Assembly (NCBI RefSeq): GCF_900109225.1
Contig: NZ_FNZK01000002.1
Span: 186,001 to 250,000 of the forward strand
Length of the DNA stretch: 64,000 bases
Origin: Propionispira arboris
Lineage (GTDB): Bacteria; Bacillota; Negativicutes; Selenomonadales; Selenomonadaceae
Reading direction: 5' to 3'
The notes under the pieces were generated by a model. The model saw only the letters and a list, made by a program, of their open reading frames with translations, had not been told where the DNA came from and ran no database searches. The position numbers and the translations under genes were made by a program. Shown piece by piece: positions 1,778 through 63,630 of this stretch (within the stretch, counting starts at the first letter, position 1; every line of letters starts with the position of its first letter).

Positions 1778-1869
1778 CAATGCATGTTTTAAATTTATTG
1801 TTTTGCTACTATAATAAGTATAGAAAATTACAATAATTGCGACAATTTATATGGAGAGGAGAATGGAAA

Positions 1870-3774
1870 ATGCTTACGGTTCGTTGCTGTAAAATAATGA
1901 ATGATTTATTGACTGCATCCTATCCAATCAGCAAGAAGGCACTAATGGAAAAATATCATGTAAGTGATCGCAGTATTAAATATGATATCAATAACTTGCG
2001 CGGTTGGTTAGAAGATGAAGCATCAAATATTTTAGTGCAATATATACCAAAATGTGGTTTCAAACTTTCTGGCAGTGCAAAGGATATTTGTGAGTTGCAG
2101 CAATTGTTTAGCAAAGAAAAAGAAAAGACCAGAATTTTTTCTACTGAACGTACTCGATATATTATACTGATGCTTTTGACAAGTAGTGAATTTATTACAA
2201 TACAGGATTTTTCATCAAAGTTAAACGTGAGTAAAAATACAGTAACGAGAGATATCGATACAATCTCAGATATGCTGGCGATCTGGGATATTTATCTGGA
2301 CAGAAAAGCCCATTGGGGGTTTAAGATAAATACTACAGAAACTAAAAGACGGCAGGCTATCGAGTATTTTATTTTATCTATGTTTGATGTAAGAGCGATT
2401 GAAGAAATTTTACAGGGGTTACGGCAATGCTTTTTGCCAGAATTTTTTAAAAAAGTCATGTGCCAGTATCTGATAGAAGACCAGGATGTGGGAAATTTAT
2501 GTAAATTATGTAAACAACTTTTAGAGAATATTTACAAGATGACAGATGTGCTCGACGATAAAGGGAGCATTGAAGTGTTCATTCGCATTTGTGTTGCATT
2601 ACATCAAATTCGGCATAAATCTGGGATTGGAGATTTAGTAAAAATTGCTGCAATATCAAATGACACAGATCACTTTTTCCGTATTGAGTTAAAAAAAATG
2701 TTTGGACATTTTAATATAAATATAGAGGAAGCTGAACTCAATTGGTTGTTGTTGCCTTTTACAAAAGATAATTCCATTAAAACGACGATTGATATTGAAA
2801 AAATAACTTTACAGATTATACAAAAGACAAGTCATAGTACTAAAATACCTTTTTCAGCAGATTGCGAATTGTATGAAAATCTTCTTATGCATATAAAAAG
2901 AGCTTTTGTAAAAAAGCAGTATCATATGGTTAATGTTAATCCGTTGCTGGATGATATACTGCATCATTTCGGTCAATTATTTAATGTTGTAAAGCAGATT
3001 TGCTATGATGTTTTTGGCAGATACAATATATATCTTCGTGATGAAGAGATTTCTTATATAGTTCTATATTTCCAATTGAGTTATGAAACATTGTTTGGTA
3101 AAGAAAGAATACGAACGATTGTTGTTTGCAGCACGGGAATATCTTCGGCCAAACTTTTGATGGCCCAGCTTAAAAACAAATTTGATGTATTGCAGATCGT
3201 TGGTTGTTGTTCTATTTTGCATGCGGAAACATTTATTGCCCATAATCCGATTGATCTCATCATAAGCGTATTGCCAATGCAAACAGAAACGCCTTGCATT
3301 GTAGTCAATGCTTTCTTGCAAAAGGATGATATAAAAAAGATACAAAGTGTATTAGACAATTTCAAATTAACACCATCGGTTACGAGAAATTTAAAAAAAG
3401 TAGAGCCTAAAATTGCTGGCAACTGGCATGGTGCTGATTTTAGTGATATGGCAAAGATTGAAAAGTTTACACAGGAAGTGATTAGCAAAGGTTTTAACTT
3501 GACGATGGCACTAAAGGAAAGTTTGGGAAAGTATTTAACAAGACAAAGTGAAACTGGGTTGATGTTTCATTGTTTATTGATGGCAAATCGCTTTGCCTGT
3601 GGAGCACCTTATGCCAATATCGTGGATGCAGGCAATGATACTGTCAATATCGTAAAAGTTAAAGAAAAAATAAGAGAGGCTGTCAGTAACTACTACGAAG
3701 ATGTACCAGAGAGTGAGATAATTGCTATTTTGAATTATTTCACTCTAAATCAAAAATTTCATAAAAAGGAGTAA
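1870..3774 (+). CDS. PRD-domain transcriptional regulator with EIIB-like domain
   Basis: A regulator of the BglG/MtlR class, 634 residues. Two N-terminal helix-turn-helix segments (about 1-60 and 90-150) resemble DNA-binding activators rather than the RNA-binding CAT domain of BglG. Two PTS regulation domains follow, with histidines in ALHQIRHK and LLMHIKRAF. A PTS IIB-like domain starts at RIRTIVVCSTGISSAKL with the phospho-acceptor type Cys. The C-terminal 130 residues look like a further, degenerate PRD. ATG 1870 is preferred over the upstream TTG at 1837 because AGGAG lies 8 bases before it. The gene leads the operon, so it probably activates the operon in response to PTS phosphorylation. 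Confidence 0.85.
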   Translation: MLTVRCCKIMNDLLTASYPISKKALMEKYHVSDRSIKYDINNLRGWLEDEASNILVQYIPKCGFKLSGSAKDICELQQLFSKEKEKTRIFSTERTRYIILMLLTSSEFITIQDFSSKLNVSKNTVTRDIDTISDMLAIWDIYLDRKAHWGFKINTTETKRRQAIEYFILSMFDVRAIEEILQGLRQCFLPEFFKKVMCQYLIEDQDVGNLCKLCKQLLENIYKMTDVLDDKGSIEVFIRICVALHQIRHKSGIGDLVKIAAISNDTDHFFRIELKKMFGHFNINIEEAELNWLLLPFTKDNSIKTTIDIEKITLQIIQKTSHSTKIPFSADCELYENLLMHIKRAFVKKQYHMVNVNPLLDDILHHFGQLFNVVKQICYDVFGRYNIYLRDEEISYIVLYFQLSYETLFGKERIRTIVVCSTGISSAKLLMAQLKNKFDVLQIVGCCSILHAETFIAHNPIDLIISVLPMQTETPCIVVNAFLQKDDIKKIQSVLDNFKLTPSVTRNLKKVEPKIAGNWHGADFSDMAKIEKFTQEVISKGFNLTMALKESLGKYLTRQSETGLMFHCLLMANRFACGAPYANIVDAGNDTVNIVKVKEKIREAVSNYYEDVPESEIIAILNYFTLNQKFHKKE

Positions 3775-3783
3775 TGGCTTTAA

Positions 3784-4914
3784 ATGAATATGAAATCGTT
3801 AGATTTGCTTATCGTAAATGGTCTTCTTCTGGACCCTTTTACCGGAGCTGAAGGAAGATATTCTATTGGTGTTCAAAATGGAAAAATTGCAGGTGTTTAC
3901 CCTGAGCAGGCAATACTTCCACGTTATAACAATTTACTTGATTTGGCGGGGGCTTATATAACGCCAGGCTGGATTGATTTGCACACGCATGTAGCTTATA
4001 AAGAAGCAGTGATCGGCATCGAAGCCGATTGTATTGGTATTCAGCAGGGTGTAACAACGGTGGTTGATGCTGGTAGCAGTGGAAGTAAAAACTTTTTACA
4101 ATTTGAAAAAAACATTATAAAAAAAGCAAAAACAAGAGTTCTTTCTTGGCTGAATATTTCTGCAGCAGGCTTATATGAAGGCAGGTCTGAACTAGAAGAT
4201 CTTGCATCGATTGATGTGGAAGCTACAAAAAAACTTATTAGCAGTAAAGCGGAAATTCGCGGTATAAAAGTAAGGATGAGTCATTCTGTAGTAAAAGAAA
4301 CCAATACCGGGGGGTTGAAAATAGCAAAAAAACTGGCGTCTCAATTGCATGTGCCTTTATTTGTTCATGTTGGGAACTGTCCGCCAGTTCTCGGGGATAT
4401 ACTCAACCTTTTGGAGCAGGGCGATATTGTTACCCATATATTTCACGGGAAAGCAGGTGGTTGTCTTGATGCAGAAGGGTACATTCTTCCCGAATTAAAA
4501 GCGGCAATAGACCGTGGCATTTATCTTGACCTGGGGCATGGAACGGAAAGTTGTTCTTTTTTCCGCTTTAAGAATGCCAGAGAAAAAGGCATTTGCATTG
4601 ATAGTATAAGTACGGATTTATATAGTCAAAATTATTCCGGACCGGTATATAGTTTAAAACATACAATGGAGAAATGTATGGCACTGGGAATGTCTTTTCG
4701 CGAGGTTATTACTGCAGTAACGCTTAAACCGGCAATTATGCTCAATATGCCCGAACTTGGGCGGATTAAAGCAGGAGCATTGGCTGATATGACTTTTTTT
4801 GAGAAAGTTGAAGGTGAGCAAACCTATATAGATGCAGATGGTAACGAGATTACTGGAACTCAGCAATTGCAGGTTAAAGGAGTAGTGCGTGAAGGGAAGG
4901 TAATCTGGCGATGA
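3784..4914 (+). CDS. Amidohydrolase/deacetylase family metallohydrolase
   Basis: A 376-residue amidohydrolase-superfamily enzyme of the adenine-deaminase/dihydroorotase type. The metal motif DLHTHV occurs near residue 65, further metal ligands are likely in FVHVG and HIFHGK, and the late aspartate in SISTDLY. Homologues in dga-like clusters are annotated as amidohydrolase/deacetylase. A role in removing an acyl or formyl group from an amino-sugar acid before DgaE acts is inference from context. An AAGGAG site precedes the ATG, 9 bases after the regulator stop, and the end overlaps the next gene by 4 bases (ATGA). Confidence 0.85.
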   Translation: MNMKSLDLLIVNGLLLDPFTGAEGRYSIGVQNGKIAGVYPEQAILPRYNNLLDLAGAYITPGWIDLHTHVAYKEAVIGIEADCIGIQQGVTTVVDAGSSGSKNFLQFEKNIIKKAKTRVLSWLNISAAGLYEGRSELEDLASIDVEATKKLISSKAEIRGIKVRMSHSVVKETNTGGLKIAKKLASQLHVPLFVHVGNCPPVLGDILNLLEQGDIVTHIFHGKAGGCLDAEGYILPELKAAIDRGIYLDLGHGTESCSFFRFKNAREKGICIDSISTDLYSQNYSGPVYSLKHTMEKCMALGMSFREVITAVTLKPAIMLNMPELGRIKAGALADMTFFEKVEGEQTYIDADGNEITGTQQLQVKGVVREGKVIWR

Positions 4915-5270
4915 AAACAAAAGTCTTGCAGCAAATTTTACGGGATGCATCACTTGACGCAGAAGGAAATGTTTTACTAAAAAAAACACTTGACGATATT
5001 GAAGAGATACTGATTGATACGAGAAATTGCATTCCGGATGAACGGTATTTGGCCGTGGGGCATCATATGGCAGAAGTGATTAAGCGAGCTCAGAGGGGGG
5101 AAGTGTTAGCAAAAATTGATCAGGATACAGAAGATCAGATTGAAGGCTCTTACAAAGAAAAAAGTAGGAATATTCTTACTTCGTTGAAAAGCTTGGGAGA
5201 TACGACGACGAGTTCTTCAGAAATAATTCTTTTGGCAATTCATTTACAGTGTGCCTCAAATGGTTTTTAA
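4911..5270 (+). CDS. Small stand-alone PRD-domain protein
   Basis: A 119-residue, mostly helical protein that overlaps the previous stop codon (ATGA). The segment YLAVGHHMAEVIKRAQRGE fits the histidine-bearing helix of a PTS regulation domain, and homologous clusters carry a small PRD protein at this place. There is no DNA- or RNA-binding part. It may act as a phosphorylation-dependent partner of the operon regulator or of the membrane module downstream. The family call is moderate and the role is inferred. Confidence 0.65.
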   Translation: MKTKVLQQILRDASLDAEGNVLLKKTLDDIEEILIDTRNCIPDERYLAVGHHMAEVIKRAQRGEVLAKIDQDTEDQIEGSYKEKSRNILTSLKSLGDTTTSSSEIILLAIHLQCASNGF

Positions 5271-5290
5271 ATAAAGGAGAGTGATTTATT

Positions 5291-5653
5291 ATGGAAAAAA
5301 TAAAAGTAGTAATTGGAGATCGCCTTGGTAAAGGTAAAAGAGTAGCAGCTGGTGTTGAGGCAGCAGGTGCAGAAGCTATATTAATTCCAGGTGTTGGCGC
5401 GGACATGAAAGTCGGAGACTATATGAACCAAAATAAAGCAGATTTTGGCATTTCTTTTTGTGGAAGCGGCGGTGCCGGTGCGATTACGGCAAAGTCAAAA
5501 TATGGTTATTCAGCTGAGTTTGGGCTCCGATCCATTGAGGCGGGAATTACTGCAATAAAAAATGGTGCACAGGTTGTCGGTTTTGGTTTCATGGATCTTG
5601 AGGAATTGGGACAGAGATTAGCCGAAGCCTTTATTAAAAAAAGTAAAGTGTGA
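5291..5653 (+). CDS. SFCGS-family glycine-rich protein
   Basis: A 120-residue soluble protein containing GISFCGSGGAGAITAKS, the signature after which the SFCGS family is named. It is glycine- and alanine-rich with an alternating strand/helix pattern (IKVVIGDRLGKGK at the N-terminus), so a small alpha/beta fold is likely. The cysteine-containing glycine loop recalls the phosphocysteine loop of PTS IIB proteins; that likeness is my inference. The start has a clear AAAGGAG site. It always travels with DUF4312, DUF4311 and DUF4310, as here. Confidence 0.85.
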   Translation: MEKIKVVIGDRLGKGKRVAAGVEAAGAEAILIPGVGADMKVGDYMNQNKADFGISFCGSGGAGAITAKSKYGYSAEFGLRSIEAGITAIKNGAQVVGFGFMDLEELGQRLAEAFIKKSKV

Positions 5654-5676
5654 CATTGTAAGGAGGTGGAAGTAGT

Positions 5677-6015
5677 ATGTTCATCGTTCATGAGGAAGTT
5701 TTGCAAATAGAAGGTACAGGTGAGACTGAGAAAGAATCTTTTCAAGACATTTTTAGTCGTATTAAACCAGAATTGGAAAAAAAGTATCCGGGAATATTGC
5801 TGCAGATAGAACCAAAGAAAATGGACATAAAGGATGCGGTGATTTCGGTTCATACAGAACGATTTTTAGGTATGCTGTTTCCACGTAAACGTAAATTATA
5901 CAAGATAACAGCGGAAATTACGGTAAAACTCAGTGTTTTTTTGACAGATACAATAAAATATCGTCACGAAGAGGAAAAATTATCGGTAGTTCAACATATA
6001 TTGGAAATGAGATAA
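5677..6015 (+). CDS. DUF4312 family protein
   Basis: A 112-residue soluble protein of unknown function, recognised from sequence and position between SFCGS and DUF4311. A predicted alpha/beta pattern is visible (FIVHEEVLQIEGTGETEKES, then two strands near the end). It has no membrane segment and no obvious catalytic motif. AAGGAGG lies 8-14 bases before ATG. It probably works as a cytoplasmic component of the membrane module encoded next to it. Confidence 0.8.
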   Translation: MFIVHEEVLQIEGTGETEKESFQDIFSRIKPELEKKYPGILLQIEPKKMDIKDAVISVHTERFLGMLFPRKRKLYKITAEITVKLSVFLTDTIKYRHEEEKLSVVQHILEMR

Positions 6016-6039
6016 GACTCATAGGAAAGGGGTTAAAAT

Positions 6040-6822
6040 ATGGACTTTATAGAAATTCTGATGAAATCTGTTATTATTGGTGCCTGCATGGGGTTTGCTG
6101 TAGGTGCAGGAGCTGCTCGAATGTTTCATGCGCCGCAGGCACAAGGAATGGGAGCTTTTCGCACCTTGGGAGAATTGAACGCTTGCGAAGGTGATCCCAT
6201 TGCACATTTTTCGTTTGGATTGGGTTTTTTGTTTAATTCATGGGCGTCTATTGTCGGCACAGGAGCTTTTACACAGGATGTAGTGCATCGCATTATCCCG
6301 AACTGGTCTGCCGCTGTTCTTTTGATGCGTAACAAGAATATAGCAGAAACTTTACATAACCCGGCGAAAATGGCATTAACGGGAGCTGTTATAGGTGCAG
6401 TAGTCATTGGTCTTATGAATTCGACGGCGGTTGCTATACCACCAGCTTTGCAGCTTATTGCAACAAAAGTGCTTGTACCGGCAGCAAATTGGCTGATTAA
6501 CCTTGTAATGCCGATTGTATTTTGGATGGCAGCTCTTGATGCTGGAAGAAGAACCGGAGTTTGGGGCACGATACTGGGGGGGCTGTCGCACCTTGTTATG
6601 GGAAACGCTGTACCGGGGATTGTTTTGGGCATTCTGATTGGTAAAGGCGTTGATGATGGTGGTTGGAACCACATTACCAGAATTTTAGTAGTAGCAGTGG
6701 TATTGCTATTTGTTTTAAGCGGATTTTTCCGGGAATTTGATATAAAACTTCTTACGGAATTTTACGTTGATGTTCCAGACGGACTTAAAGCATTTCATGC
6801 ATTATTTAAAGCAGGAGCGTGA
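6040..6822 (+). CDS. DUF4311 family membrane protein
   Basis: A 260-residue integral membrane protein with about six to eight hydrophobic segments. The N-terminal segment ends in GMGAFRTLGELNACEGDP, a conserved polar stretch followed by HFSFGLGFLFNSWASIVGTG; such glycine-rich re-entrant loops are common in PTS IIC-like and other transporters. AGGAAAGGGG precedes the ATG. Together with DUF4310 it forms the membrane part of the module. The transporter role is inferred from topology and context, not demonstrated. Confidence 0.82.
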   Translation: MDFIEILMKSVIIGACMGFAVGAGAARMFHAPQAQGMGAFRTLGELNACEGDPIAHFSFGLGFLFNSWASIVGTGAFTQDVVHRIIPNWSAAVLLMRNKNIAETLHNPAKMALTGAVIGAVVIGLMNSTAVAIPPALQLIATKVLVPAANWLINLVMPIVFWMAALDAGRRTGVWGTILGGLSHLVMGNAVPGIVLGILIGKGVDDGGWNHITRILVVAVVLLFVLSGFFREFDIKLLTEFYVDVPDGLKAFHALFKAGA

Positions 6823-7484
6823 TGATAGTGGATAATAATGAAGATTTACAGACAGGGTTTTGGTTATCTGAGTGGGCCTTTCCTATTTTTACAGCATTTT
6901 TGGCAGCTGGTGTATTTGCTGGTACACATATGTATTATGTATATCATATCGGTGCATTCAATGAAATTGCAATTGTGGCTATGCTCGAAGCGGGGCTTAA
7001 GGGTGGAAGCTTTGGAGCTGCAGCGGCTTTTGGTGCCAGTTTTCTCTTTGCCCGCATTTTGGAAGGTCCGCTAGTAGGGATATTGGATATTGGCGGCTCT
7101 ATTATGACAGGAGTAGGTATCGGTATTCCGGCGATTTTTTTGAGTATGGGAATTACAGGACCTTTAGAGTCGTTTCCGTTGGCACTTTTGACGGGAGCGG
7201 TTATTGGACTTGCCATAGGCTGTATTATTATTATTATTCGAAAATATACAGTTGCTTCCAATGAATCTACTTTTGGTGCGGATGTCATGATGGGAGCTGG
7301 TAATGCTTCAGGCCGATATTTAGGACCGATGATCGTTATTGCGGCGGCAATGGCGTCCATTCCAGTGGGAATCGGGGCAACCATTGGTGCTGCTGTGTTT
7401 TATGCATGGAAAAAACCAATTGCCGGTGGGGCTATTATCGGAGCTATGATTTTAGGGGCGCTTTTTCCAATTATGACAAAATAA
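6822..7484 (+). CDS. DUF4310 family membrane protein
   Basis: A 220-residue membrane protein with about six glycine/alanine-rich transmembrane segments, including GGSFGAAAAFGASFLFARI. The stop of DUF4311 and this ATG overlap (GTGATG), so the two are translationally coupled and probably form one complex. A GTG at 6819 or 6828 could also serve as start; GGAG at 6814-6817 does not decide. The polar loop RKYTVASNESTFGADVMMG divides the protein in two. Likely the second half of an uncharacterised permease. Confidence 0.8.
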   Translation: MIVDNNEDLQTGFWLSEWAFPIFTAFLAAGVFAGTHMYYVYHIGAFNEIAIVAMLEAGLKGGSFGAAAAFGASFLFARILEGPLVGILDIGGSIMTGVGIGIPAIFLSMGITGPLESFPLALLTGAVIGLAIGCIIIIIRKYTVASNESTFGADVMMGAGNASGRYLGPMIVIAAAMASIPVGIGATIGAAVFYAWKKPIAGGAIIGAMILGALFPIMTK

Positions 7485-7499
7485 GAAGGAGATAAAAAG

Positions 7500-8615
7500 A
7501 TGAGTGTTTTTGAACAGTATGGTCCACGTAAAGTTATAAATGGCTGTGGAAAAATGACGGTTTTAGGTGCTAGTGCGGTTGATAAGGATGTTGCAGATGC
7601 CATGGCGCAGGCTGCCATGGACTATGTTGAAATTGCAGAACTTTTACCATCAGCTGGAAAGTTTATTGCACAAGCAACGGGGGCGGAAGATGGCTGTCCA
7701 ACTTGTGGTGCGGCTGCGGGTATTGCTATCAGTACAGCTGCTGTAATTAGTGGTATCAATCTTGATATTATAGAAAATTTGCCAGATAGTGAAGGCCTTA
7801 AAAATGAAATTATCCTGCAAAAAGGGCATGCCGTCAACTTTGGAGCCCGTGTGACTCAGATGATGAAGCTGGGAGGCGGGAAACCGATAGAAGTGGGAAC
7901 AGCTAATCTCGTTGTTGCACAAAACATTGAAAATGCCATAAATGAAAAAACAGCAGCCCTTTTTTATATTAAGTCACACCATGCTGTACAAAAAGGTATG
8001 GTATCAATTGAAACGATGCTGGATATCGCACACCGGCATAAATTGCCGCTCATTATTGATGCAGCTGCCGAGGAGGATTTACACAAATATATAAAATTAG
8101 GAGCCGATCTTGTTATATATAGTGGCGGTAAAGCACTGGAAGGGCCGACTTCCGGTTTTATTTGCGGGCGCAGTGATCTTTGTCGGGCTTGCCGTATGCA
8201 GTATCAAGGAATAGGTCGTCCTATGAAAACAGGCAAAGAAAGTATTATTGGACTACTTACTGCACTGGGGAAATATGCGGCAAAAAAACCAAATGCAGAA
8301 CAGCAAAAAAAACGCATGAAACTGCTTTTAGCTGAATTAAAAAATATTCCGGGGATTACAGGAAGTATTGCACAGGATGAAGCTGGCAGAGAAATTTATC
8401 GGGCAAGACTTGATATTGATGCCAATATCACAGGGATCAGTGCAACGGTGATTGCTCAAAAATTAGAAACAGGGAATCCAGCCATTCATACAAGAAATTA
8501 TTGCCTGTCACAGGGACAAATCTTTATAGATCCGAGGCCTTTGCTGGAAGGACAGGAAAATCTTATAGCAGATCGTTTTAAAGAAATTTTAGCACAAACA
8601 AAGGGGAATAAATAA
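7500..8615 (+). CDS. dgaE: DgaE-family PLP-dependent ammonia-lyase (D-glucosaminate-6-phosphate dehydratase type)
   Basis: A 371-residue fold-type I PLP enzyme of the SelA-like DgaE family. Lys211 in IYSGGKALEGPTSGF is the expected Schiff-base lysine and Asp187 in LIIDAAAEED the pyridine-nitrogen aspartate. In Salmonella DgaE removes ammonia from D-glucosaminate-6-phosphate to give 2-keto-3-deoxygluconate-6-phosphate. The next gene encodes the matching aldolase and starts 2 bases after the stop. AAGGAG precedes the ATG. The exact substrate here may differ, because the usual dga PTS is replaced by the DUF4310-4312 module. Confidence 0.9.
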   Translation: MSVFEQYGPRKVINGCGKMTVLGASAVDKDVADAMAQAAMDYVEIAELLPSAGKFIAQATGAEDGCPTCGAAAGIAISTAAVISGINLDIIENLPDSEGLKNEIILQKGHAVNFGARVTQMMKLGGGKPIEVGTANLVVAQNIENAINEKTAALFYIKSHHAVQKGMVSIETMLDIAHRHKLPLIIDAAAEEDLHKYIKLGADLVIYSGGKALEGPTSGFICGRSDLCRACRMQYQGIGRPMKTGKESIIGLLTALGKYAAKKPNAEQQKKRMKLLLAELKNIPGITGSIAQDEAGREIYRARLDIDANITGISATVIAQKLETGNPAIHTRNYCLSQGQIFIDPRPLLEGQENLIADRFKEILAQTKGNK

Positions 8616-8617
8616 AA

Positions 8618-9337
8618 ATGGCAACAATAAAAATAAATGTACTGGCAGCAGATGCACAAAATGCGAAAGAAATAGTAGAAGCCACCAATGGAAATGTTTA
8701 TATTGGTGTTATGGTAAAACCTTTTCCAACGGCAGAAGCAGCAGCAAAGACGGTTAGAGAAATGCAGCGCTTAGGTATACCCGTGTCGGTTGGGCTTGGC
8801 GGAGCAGATCCGTTGATGTGGCATAAGGTTGTAGAAACAGCTGTTTTGACAAAACCAGCACATGTAAATCAAGTCTATCCTGGAGCTGGCTATACGCTTG
8901 CCGCACTTAAAGCTGCAGGAAGTGAAGATACCATTGTCAATGCATTGATCAAGCCAAGCGGTATAACGGGGAAAGTATCTATTCTTACGGGACCAGAAAG
9001 TCAGGCTTTTGATGAATATATTAGTTGTGAGGCAGCAGCAGCAGCCTTGAAAGAGTTACATATTCCTTCGGTAAAATTTTATCCAATAGGTGGAGCCAAA
9101 CATCTCGATGAAGTTGCGGCCATGGTAAAGGCGGCTGTAAATGCTGGTATTACTATGTTTGAACCAACGGGCGGGATTGATGCTCAATCTATAGAAGCTG
9201 TTGTCAAAGTTTGTTTGGAAAACGGCGCACAAACCATAGTTCCTCATGTTTATACTGCTTTTGTCGACAAAAATACAGGAAAAACAGAACCATCTCAAGT
9301 AAAAAATTCACTGGAAAAGCTTTTAAAGTTACTCTGA
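8618..9337 (+). CDS. dgaF: DgaF-family 2-keto-3-deoxy-6-phosphogluconate aldolase
   Basis: A 239-residue TIM-barrel protein of the KDGP aldolase family found with DgaE. Segments fitting barrel strands are GNVYIGVMVKPFP, VSVGLGGADP, VKFYPIGGAKH and MFEPTGGID; the lysine of the MVKPFP segment or of FYPIGGAK may be the Schiff-base residue. It splits KDGP into pyruvate and glyceraldehyde-3-phosphate, completing the pathway. It is the last gene of the operon and a terminator follows at 9449-9480. Confidence 0.88.
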   Translation: MATIKINVLAADAQNAKEIVEATNGNVYIGVMVKPFPTAEAAAKTVREMQRLGIPVSVGLGGADPLMWHKVVETAVLTKPAHVNQVYPGAGYTLAALKAAGSEDTIVNALIKPSGITGKVSILTGPESQAFDEYISCEAAAAALKELHIPSVKFYPIGGAKHLDEVAAMVKAAVNAGITMFEPTGGIDAQSIEAVVKVCLENGAQTIVPHVYTAFVDKNTGKTEPSQVKNSLEKLLKLL

Positions 9338-9448
9338 GATAAACTTTAAAAAATGCGATATGAAATCGATGATAAAAACACTAGTTAGGTGCTTTTATTA
9401 TACAAAACAAGAAGTTATGTAGAAAAGAATCAATGGAGTTTTGTTTGT

Positions 9449-9480
9449 AATGCAGGGTCAACTGGCCCTGCATTATTTTA
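9449..9480 (+). terminator. Terminator of the dga-type operon
   Basis: AATGCAGGG (9449-9457) pairs with CCCTGCATT (9466-9474), followed by ATTTTAATTTG. Confidence 0.8.
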
Positions 9481-62829: not shown

Positions 62830-63630
62830 ATGACAATTGAATTTTGGCAGGCAGCCTTAATTGGCGTATTCTATTATTTAAGTCAAACTGGATCACTGTT
62901 TTTTGGCTGCATCGGCAGTTTATCCATTCTTTATAAACCACTGGTAGCTGGTACCATCGTAGGATTTATTCTGGGTGATCCAGTTAGCGGTTGTATCATT
63001 GGGGCAGCGATTCAACTGCCGTATATCGCCTTTATATCTGCCGGAGGCTCTCAGCCGATGGACCCAGGACTTGCCGGATATGTCGGGACGGCCTGGGCTA
63101 TGGTTGCCGGCGTATCTCCGGCTGCGGCAGTAACCATTGCCTTGCCTTTGGGATTGTTGGGAACTATGATTTGGATCGCCCATATGACGTTAGATGTTAC
63201 GTTTGTGCATATGGCAGATAAAGCGGCTGAAAAAGGTGATTTGGATAAAATTTGCTTTTTGCATGTTTGGCCGCCGCAGATTTTACTGTTTTTTCTTAGT
63301 GTGATTCCAGCGACGATTGCTGTTTATTATGGTGCGGATGCAGTCGCTGATATTATTGCTAGTTTATCAAGTACGCCTTTGCATGTTTTAGAGGTTATTG
63401 GTGGTTTACTTCCAGCACTTGGTATTGCGATGAATCTTAGAGCTATTGGACGTACGGGAACAATACCGTTTTTCATTTTAGGGTTTATTTTTATCATTTA
63501 TTTCAAATTGCCTATTACGGCAGTCGCTGTTATAGCGGCAATTATCGCTTTTTTCTATACGCAATTAAGTCATCCGGCAGAAGAAGCTTTGGCCAGTGCC
63601 GGGGATAGCACGGAAGAGGAGGACTTTTAA
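62830..63630 (+). CDS. PTS system mannose-family IIC component
   Basis: A 266-residue membrane permease of the EII-Sor type with about seven to eight segments. PLVAGTIVGFILGDPVSGCI and SAGGSQPMDPGLAGYVGTAW are family patterns. GGAG lies before ATG 62830; GTG 62821 is part of that site. The acidic end (SAGDSTEEEDF) is cytoplasmic. Confidence 0.92.
   Translation: MTIEFWQAALIGVFYYLSQTGSLFFGCIGSLSILYKPLVAGTIVGFILGDPVSGCIIGAAIQLPYIAFISAGGSQPMDPGLAGYVGTAWAMVAGVSPAAAVTIALPLGLLGTMIWIAHMTLDVTFVHMADKAAEKGDLDKICFLHVWPPQILLFFLSVIPATIAVYYGADAVADIIASLSSTPLHVLEVIGGLLPALGIAMNLRAIGRTGTIPFFILGFIFIIYFKLPITAVAVIAAIIAFFYTQLSHPAEEALASAGDSTEEEDF

Follow-up and report, generated by a model that had tools for sequence, protein, structure and literature searches.

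A conserved five-gene unit beside DgaE and KDGP aldolase genes in Propionispira arboris as a candidate PTS-dependent permease

Operon layout and conservation of the five-gene unit

The window analyzed here is a 64,000 nt stretch of the Propionispira arboris genome (contig NZ_FNZK01000002.1, positions 186,001 to 250,000). It contains an operon spanning from a PRD regulator gene (1837) to a KDGP aldolase gene (9337), with the following features.

1837..3774, + strand: operon regulator with two HTH domains, a PRD, an EIIB-like stretch (VCSTGIS) and a PRD-like C-terminal part
3784..4914, + strand: metallohydrolase of the amidohydrolase/deacetylase family, EF_0837-like (profile matches)
4911..5270, + strand: stand-alone PRD protein (profiles, conservation and hhalign to the YhfY family)
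5291..5653, + strand: SFCGS protein with a predicted RpiB-like alpha/beta fold (Pfam, conservation, model and hhalign)
5677..6015, + strand: DUF4312 protein with a dodecin-like predicted model (Pfam PF14189)
6040..6822, + strand: DUF4311 polytopic membrane protein (Pfam and conservation)
6819..7484, + strand: DUF4310 polytopic membrane protein, its start overlapping the DUF4311 end (Pfam and conservation)
7500..8615, + strand: DgaE-type PLP ammonia-lyase (profile and residue comparison with characterized DGL)
8618..9337, + strand: KDGP aldolase family protein, DgaF-like (profile matches)
9447..9476, + strand: terminator-like hairpin with a 13-bp stem and a T-rich tail, ending the operon (pattern match only)

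The likelier start of the regulator is the ATG at 1870. The amidohydrolase gene and the PRD gene that follows share positions 4911-4914, and the two membrane genes are joined by the expected stop/start overlap, GCG TGA TG, with AGGAG upstream. An Rfam search gave no match. The initial annotation described a four-gene membrane module and noted that recognizable PTS IIA and IIC were missing. The module is real and all ORFs lie where they had been placed beforehand, but five genes occupy the stretch and the unit includes the PRD gene, in the order PRD–SFCGS–DUF4312–DUF4311–DUF4310. Profile scans of the window operon found neither a kinase nor a known PTS permease subunit, and none of the five proteins contains an EIIA, EIIB or EIIC domain at Pfam E<1.

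Four of the proteins match Pfam families well above cut-off: SFCGS (PF14272, E 1e-56) and the three DUFs (PF14189, 8e-21; PF14188, 3e-114; PF14187, 8e-103). The PRD gene falls just below it (21.8 bits vs a cut-off of 23). The complete unit is found in 82 of 83 loci in Bacillota and Proteobacteria; PRD, SFCGS, DUF4312 and DUF4311 are each present in all 83, and the single missing DUF4310 is cut off by a contig end. Above-cut-off SFCGS and DUF4310 are held by the identical six of 348 genomes, for which the chance expectation is ~4e-13. This near-complete co-occurrence indicates that the unit is not a product of chance. A further DUF4310 match (L008) proved to be an unrelated membrane protein. 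The five genes also occur without adjacent DgaE and aldolase genes (L015, L082, L088 and L092), so it is with the membrane pair, and not with the enzymes, that SFCGS and PRD are linked.

Soluble proteins and membrane pair

SFCGS had been likened to an EIIB because of a cysteine among glycines, as in a phosphocysteine loop, and a fold comparison with PTS IIB and IIC had been proposed. In structure-model alignments, from which rows of the plasmid collection were left out, the predicted model corresponds to the ribose-5-phosphate isomerase B (RpiB) fold (Z up to 12.6 over 117 residues, 2.8 A; Foldseek E 2e-5), and the match to Pfam LacAB_rpiB is just below cut-off (5.7e-5). As the fold search matched the model to RpiB/LacAB isomerases, an EIIB fold was rejected. 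The sole invariant cysteine, C57 (75/75), lies in a CGSGGAGA loop that corresponds to the CGTGIG active-site loop of RpiB; no histidine is invariant. A phospho-cysteine role of C57, arisen on a different fold, is possible judging from its conservation, while we know of no RpiB-fold protein that acts as a phosphocarrier. In the PRD protein, H52 and H111 are the sole invariant histidines (78/78), and we propose from this pattern that it may accept His-phosphate from HPr.

The model of DUF4312 is dodecin-like, with a beta-alpha-beta-beta arrangement; its Z scores of 7.2-7.4, obtained across whole dodecins of 66-68 aa, are below the reliable level of 8, and hhalign (0.1%) detected no sequence homology to dodecins. 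Its conserved hairpin tip is Phe-rich and basic (E-R/K-F-L-x-x-x-x-P-R-x-R) and perhaps docks to the membrane subunits. SFCGS, DUF4312 and PRD are separate small proteins, and the earlier notion of split soluble subunits is supported.

DUF4311 has four invariant histidines, H56, H83, H106 and H253 (82/82), and DUF4310 has conserved GAFN and MMGAGN motifs. The membrane pair found no counterpart in the fold search (lowest E 0.07, highest Z 3.5), with a model of moderate quality (pLDDT 73) in which a known fold could be missed. The profiles of DUF4311 and DUF4310 gave hhalign probabilities of <1% against mannose- and galactitol-type IIC, the IIC families that were profiled; homology to either of these, or to E. 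coli YhfT, is without profile support. The same holds for the uracil/xanthine permease family, an idea prompted by one weak match to the YhfT profile and by a beta-bridge that AF2 placed between the two GAF motifs.

Phosphorylated substrate, HPr/EI linkage and competing readings

The phosphate pocket of characterized DGL has been defined (PMC9529869). Its arginines, R301, R332 and R346, are kept in the window DgaE and in all 70 relatives, as is H161, the equivalent of DGL H163. Because these arginines are retained, the substrate of DgaE should be a phosphate ester. The score of DgaE (441) is under the equivalog cut-off of 600, so the exact substrate assignment is putative. In Salmonella, the phosphate is supplied by the DgaABCD PTS (PMC9529869). 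A protein cluster of PfkB-type kinases is represented in only five of the loci (Pfam on one member).

Of the 83 loci, 19 have an HPr gene within or next to the cassette and nine have an EI gene there. In four lineages the operon comes with a dedicated HPr gene, or with HPr and EI together, and the arrangement differs: Paenibacillus has HPr-EI upstream of the regulator, HPr follows the aldolase in Brevibacillus, a Bartonella plasmid (L096) encodes one HPr-EI fusion, and HAD-HPr-EI follows the aldolase in genome G159 (L254, besides the 83 loci). No EIIA, EIIB or EIIC genes were recognized in the scanned HPr/EI-bearing operons, except for an EIIA domain in the Bartonella regulator. Together with the two invariant histidines of PRD, these dedicated genes support the earlier suspicion that PTS phosphorylation is involved. 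The regulator had been described as carrying PRDs and an EIIB-like domain; the PRD part holds, but the EIIB-like stretch of the window copy is not significant in Pfam, and no EIIA domain was found in that copy. Among 47 regulators scanned, PRD was found in all, EIIA_2 in 11 and PTS_IIB in 10 (E<0.01). PRD shares one reading frame with the regulator in L079 and with SFCGS in L253, the latter locus also having an in-frame stop in DUF4311; since both fusions contain an internal start codon and a ribosome-binding-like site, they are not firm evidence.

We tentatively favor, at slightly less than even confidence, a PTS-dependent permease in which soluble subunits stand in for IIA and IIB. This reading draws on the HPr/EI genes in or beside the cassettes, in differing arrangements and with no EII genes recognized in scanned operons; on the phosphate pocket of DgaE in an operon without a kinase; on the one invariant cysteine of SFCGS and the two invariant histidines of PRD; on the fact that SFCGS and PRD follow the membrane pair; and on homologous SFCGS/PRD partners that flank another membrane protein in YhfY-YhfU-YhfT. 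A heterodimer of DUF4311 and DUF4310 would form the membrane channel, and DUF4312, dodecin-like in its model, would keep the soluble proteins attached to it. Phosphate would be passed from PEP via EI and HPr to PRD (His52/His111), then to Cys57 of SFCGS and to C6 of the crossing substrate, probably a 2-amino-2-deoxy sugar acid or its N-acylated form. The phosphorylated product would be handed to the amidohydrolase, then to DgaE with loss of ammonia, and finally to the KDGP aldolase, yielding pyruvate and glyceraldehyde-3-phosphate. The enzyme fold of SFCGS and a membrane pair with neither IIC profile similarity nor a fold match speak against this reading.

The main rival, which we hold to have a real if smaller chance, is a PTS-regulated secondary transporter: DUF4311/DUF4310 would import the substrate or a ready phosphate ester through facilitated or ion-gradient-driven transport, phosphorylation of PRD and the regulator would serve as an on/off signal, and SFCGS would be a non-catalyzing substrate-binding or gating subunit. 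PRDs are usually regulatory, being classic targets of HPr and EIIB. Given this and the PRD in frame with the L079 regulator, the link to HPr/EI could be purely regulatory; the EIIA domain within 11 of 47 regulators and a membrane pair lacking known IIC similarity fit as well. However, a secondary transporter does not by itself explain where the phosphate ester for DgaE comes from in an operon without a kinase, nor does it account for the recruitment of complete HPr-EI pairs.

We consider it improbable that SFCGS is a sugar-phosphate isomerase of the pathway and the membrane pair alone the transporter. The RpiB fold and the active-site cysteine loop are kept, but SFCGS has no conserved histidine, unlike the RpiB set with its conserved H17 and H106, the protein accompanies the membrane genes even where DgaE and the aldolase are not adjacent, and its relative YhfU adjoins an unrelated enzyme set. 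Very unlikely, in our judgement, is a sensor/signalling membrane complex (or exporter) that imports no small molecule and reports the substrate to the PRD regulator: the strong PRD/regulator linkage and the lack of a match to transporter folds would suit it, yet it would leave the enzymes of the window operon without a substrate importer, and two large, strongly conserved polytopic proteins would be excessive for a sensor.

Comparison with known systems

The window operon shares its gene families with the NCBIfam cassette EF_0829-EF_0839 / AHA_3910-3917 (TIGR03577-TIGR03583), for which hypothetical models giving no function were already available; a literature search found no functional description of it. 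SFCGS, DUF4311, DUF4310 and the aldolase score above the cut-offs of these models, and PRD, DUF4312 and the amidohydrolase below, so the window operon represents a divergent member. To this cassette we add the predicted RpiB-like fold of SFCGS in place of an EIIB, the dodecin-like model of DUF4312, the kinship of SFCGS and PRD to E. coli YhfU and YhfY, the operon-borne HPr or HPr plus EI of four lineages, and the retention of the phosphate-binding arginines of DgaE despite the lack of a kinase or known PTS permease in the window operon.

The D-glucosaminate operon dgaABCDEF of Salmonella (Miller et al., 2013, to the extent described in PMC9529869) likewise combines DgaE/DgaF-type enzymes, including the phosphate pocket, with transport genes. 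Its permease is a mannose-family PTS (DgaABCD), whereas the window operon has the five genes, an amidohydrolase and a PRD regulator. This supports the initial annotation in placing the module in the genomic slot of that PTS, where it would act in transport. RpiB/LacAB isomerases have the fold and the Cys-Gly-Ser/Thr-Gly loop in common with SFCGS, which differs in its lack of conserved histidines, its shorter chain and its constant partnership with membrane proteins.

E. coli YhfY-YhfU-YhfT has the same order of a PRD, an RpiB-like protein with an invariant cysteine in a Gly loop and a polytopic membrane protein. By hhalign, SFCGS aligns with YhfU (DUF2620) at 90.6% over 117 columns and the PRD protein with YhfY at 95.8%; DUF2620 matches were obtained in 8 of 40 scanned SFCGS members (best E 0.0068). 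An apparent DUF2620 fusion (L128, 575-aa frame) proved to be no more than an extended open frame in GC-rich sequence. YhfT is one 430-aa protein whose sequence shows no detectable resemblance to DUF4311/DUF4310, and the yhf set has different enzymes and no DUF4312. From these alignments, YhfT/YhfU/YhfY look like a sister system. If the PTS-dependent reading is true, it would give a first testable function to the uncharacterized yhfT-yhfU-yhfY of E. coli K-12, and a function to five hypothetical DUF/TIGR families of Bacillota and Proteobacteria.

The folds of IIC and IIB divide the PTS permeases into a small number of superfamilies. The unit resembles such permeases (EII) in its genomic link to HPr/EI, its PRD, the EIIB-like regulator and the phosphorylated product expected, and differs from them in that its five proteins include no recognizable EIIA, EIIB or EIIC. 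It may represent a further class, with PRD in place of EIIA, an RpiB-fold phospho-Cys protein in place of EIIB and a two-subunit non-IIC membrane unit, and with YhfT-YhfU-YhfY as a second branch; phosphate-coupled import would then have arisen again from different, unrelated proteins.

The operon and its five-gene unit

The window derives from contig C36 of a 4.26-Mb draft genome and carries the following features near its start:

1837-9337: operon encoding, in order, a PRD regulator, an amidohydrolase, a stand-alone PRD protein, SFCGS, DUF4312, DUF4311, DUF4310, a DgaE-type lyase and a KDGP aldolase
9447-9476: terminator-like hairpin downstream of the operon

The initial annotation placed a four-gene module at 4911-7484. 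The location holds, but five genes lie there, the PRD gene being part of the unit; the described overlap of the DUF4311 and DUF4310 genes was borne out. These families are already in NCBIfam as hypothetical members EF_0829-EF_0839, and our literature search found no paper assigning them a function. Upstream of the operon lies a Cof-type HAD hydrolase gene (768-1556) that an in-frame TAA at 1149-1151 divides in two; each part matches one and the same Pfam model. In L035, L041, L042, L253 and L254, loci of other genomes, the cassette is followed by an intact HAD gene of this family.

The locus set (n=83) comprised 79 loci found by scanning named genomes with DUF4311, the window's own locus and three from annotated plasmid records. 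PRD, SFCGS, DUF4312 and DUF4311 are present in 83/83 loci and DUF4310 in 82/83, the sole exception (L029) ending at a contig edge. DgaE accompanies them in 75 of the 83, the aldolase in 69. As DUF4311 was used to find the loci, this count alone would be biased towards it; a co-occurrence test in 348 genomes of the phylum is free of this bias, and SFCGS and DUF4310 exceeded their cut-offs in the identical 6/348 genomes (chance about 4e-13). In some loci (L015, L082 and L092) the five genes have the regulator as their only companion. Therefore, the unit is the five genes rather than the pathway. Brevibacillus daliensis (L019) carries it twice, in tandem.

Predicted folds of the subunits

SFCGS matched Pfam LacAB_rpiB with an E-value of 5.7e-5, 1.2 bits below the cut-off, and its fold was therefore tested. 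An AlphaFold2 model was built from locus L071, where SFCGS and DUF4312 lie in one frame, as a single chain with the intervening stop codon treated as a residue (mean pLDDT 89). RpiB structures were the top match of the SFCGS model in both programs (Foldseek E 2e-5; VIA Z 12.6 over 117 residues at 2.8 A, the best unrelated protein scoring 8.5). Thus, the EIIB-like character proposed for SFCGS gives way to a predicted RpiB fold. C57 occurs in 75/75 SFCGS sequences, yet their alignment lacks any conserved histidine, of which the RpiB set has two, so that SFCGS is unlikely to be an ordinary isomerase. C57 may carry phosphate. In Providencia stuartii (L056, 9281-9958) SFCGS and DUF4312 form a single open frame of 225 aa, either a genuine gene fusion or the product of an indel in the assembly.

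The DUF4312 model is beta-alpha-beta-beta and aligns with entire dodecin chains at Z 7.2-7.4 in the structure aligner; sequence comparison gave no support for this relation. Its hairpin tip, conserved in most members, is rich in Phe and Leu and ends in Pro-Arg-x-Arg, and could help DUF4312 to dock to the membrane or to membrane proteins.

DUF4311 and DUF4310 are highly conserved, and some of their His, Asp, Asn and Gly residues are invariant. Their joint model, built by the same stop-codon read-through (pLDDT 73, pTM 0.64), contains only two beta-bridge stretches, one at each subunit's GAF motif; the two GAF motifs thus pair in the model. The pair matched neither of two IIC profiles, and the model matched no solved structure, which at this moderate quality falls short of proving a new fold. 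In L253 (8588-9321, genome G274), an in-frame TAG interrupts DUF4311 where a tryptophan is normally conserved, in an otherwise complete cassette.

PTS phosphorylation and the source of the phosphate ester

The PRD protein has exactly two invariant histidines (78/78). All regulators contain PRDs, with an EIIA domain also in 11/47 and a detectable EIIB-like domain in 10/47. HPr genes lie within or adjoining the cassette in 19/83 loci and EI genes in 9/83; in the further distant genome of L254 the order is cassette-HAD-HPr-EI. Because their positions differ among Paenibacillus, Brevibacillus, Bartonella and the L254 genome, we take these as four separate recruitments, for which a rough estimate, with 30 lineages and a 0.6% chance at each locus assumed, gives a probability of about 3e-5. 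The recruitments argue strongly that PTS phosphorylation is important to the cassette, be its role transport or regulation.

The window's genome is itself PTS-rich (9 mannose-IIC and 17 galactitol-IIC matches), and towards the window end, at about 62842-63552, there is a mannose-type PTS IIC gene. The 55.7 kb plasmid of Bartonella sp. HY406 (L096) bears the whole cassette with its own HPr-EI fusion gene, adjoined by type VI secretion genes. In Enterococcus and Lactococcus (L094, L069, L074 and L086), a PTS IIC and a MupG-type protein, often with a protein of ~97 aa without Pfam match, separate DUF4310 from the amidohydrolase as an insertion, which suggests an N-acetylmuramate-type link in these species.

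In Salmonella, D-glucosaminate-6-phosphate is delivered by the PTS DgaABCD, and docking placed the phosphate site of DGL, the characterised DgaE-type enzyme, near Arg301, Arg332 and Arg346 (PMC9529869). These residues and the proton donor His163 are kept in 70/70 cassette-linked DgaE proteins. A phosphate ester would need a maker; the window operon encodes no kinase, and the five-gene unit occupies the place of the PTS permease in the Salmonella operon. Among the loci, five have a PfkB-type kinase cluster (one member annotated), the remaining scanned neighbors being unrelated genes. For these reasons we tentatively favor group translocation by the five-gene unit, with a confidence somewhat short of even. 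Possibly the ester is made by a kinase encoded at another site of the genome, or is imported ready-made. The strongest rival (ALTERNATIVES), a secondary transporter that the PTS merely regulates, is plausible but less likely: the in-frame joining of regulator and PRD in L079 favors a regulatory PRD, whereas that of PRD and SFCGS in L253 favors a PRD-SFCGS relay. In both joins a start codon lies inside the frame, accompanied by a ribosome-binding-like sequence; because of these starts and the stop codon in the L253 DUF4311 we give them little weight. Our verdict is that the module is real, conserved and uncharacterised, and probably serves PTS-linked transport with an RpiB-like subunit. An extra lactonase (PF10282) in the Klebsiella operon (L095, 13792-14946) suggests that the pathway includes a sugar-acid lactone.

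Kinship with the E. coli Yhf proteins

Profile comparison related SFCGS to the YhfU family (DUF2620; 90.6%, 117 columns) and the PRD protein to YhfY (95.8%); individual SFCGS members match DUF2620 weakly. The membrane protein YhfT has no sequence similarity to DUF4311 or DUF4310. In related Bacillota genomes the gene order is YhfY(PRD)-YhfU-YhfT, and the E. coli system is probably a sister of the cassette.
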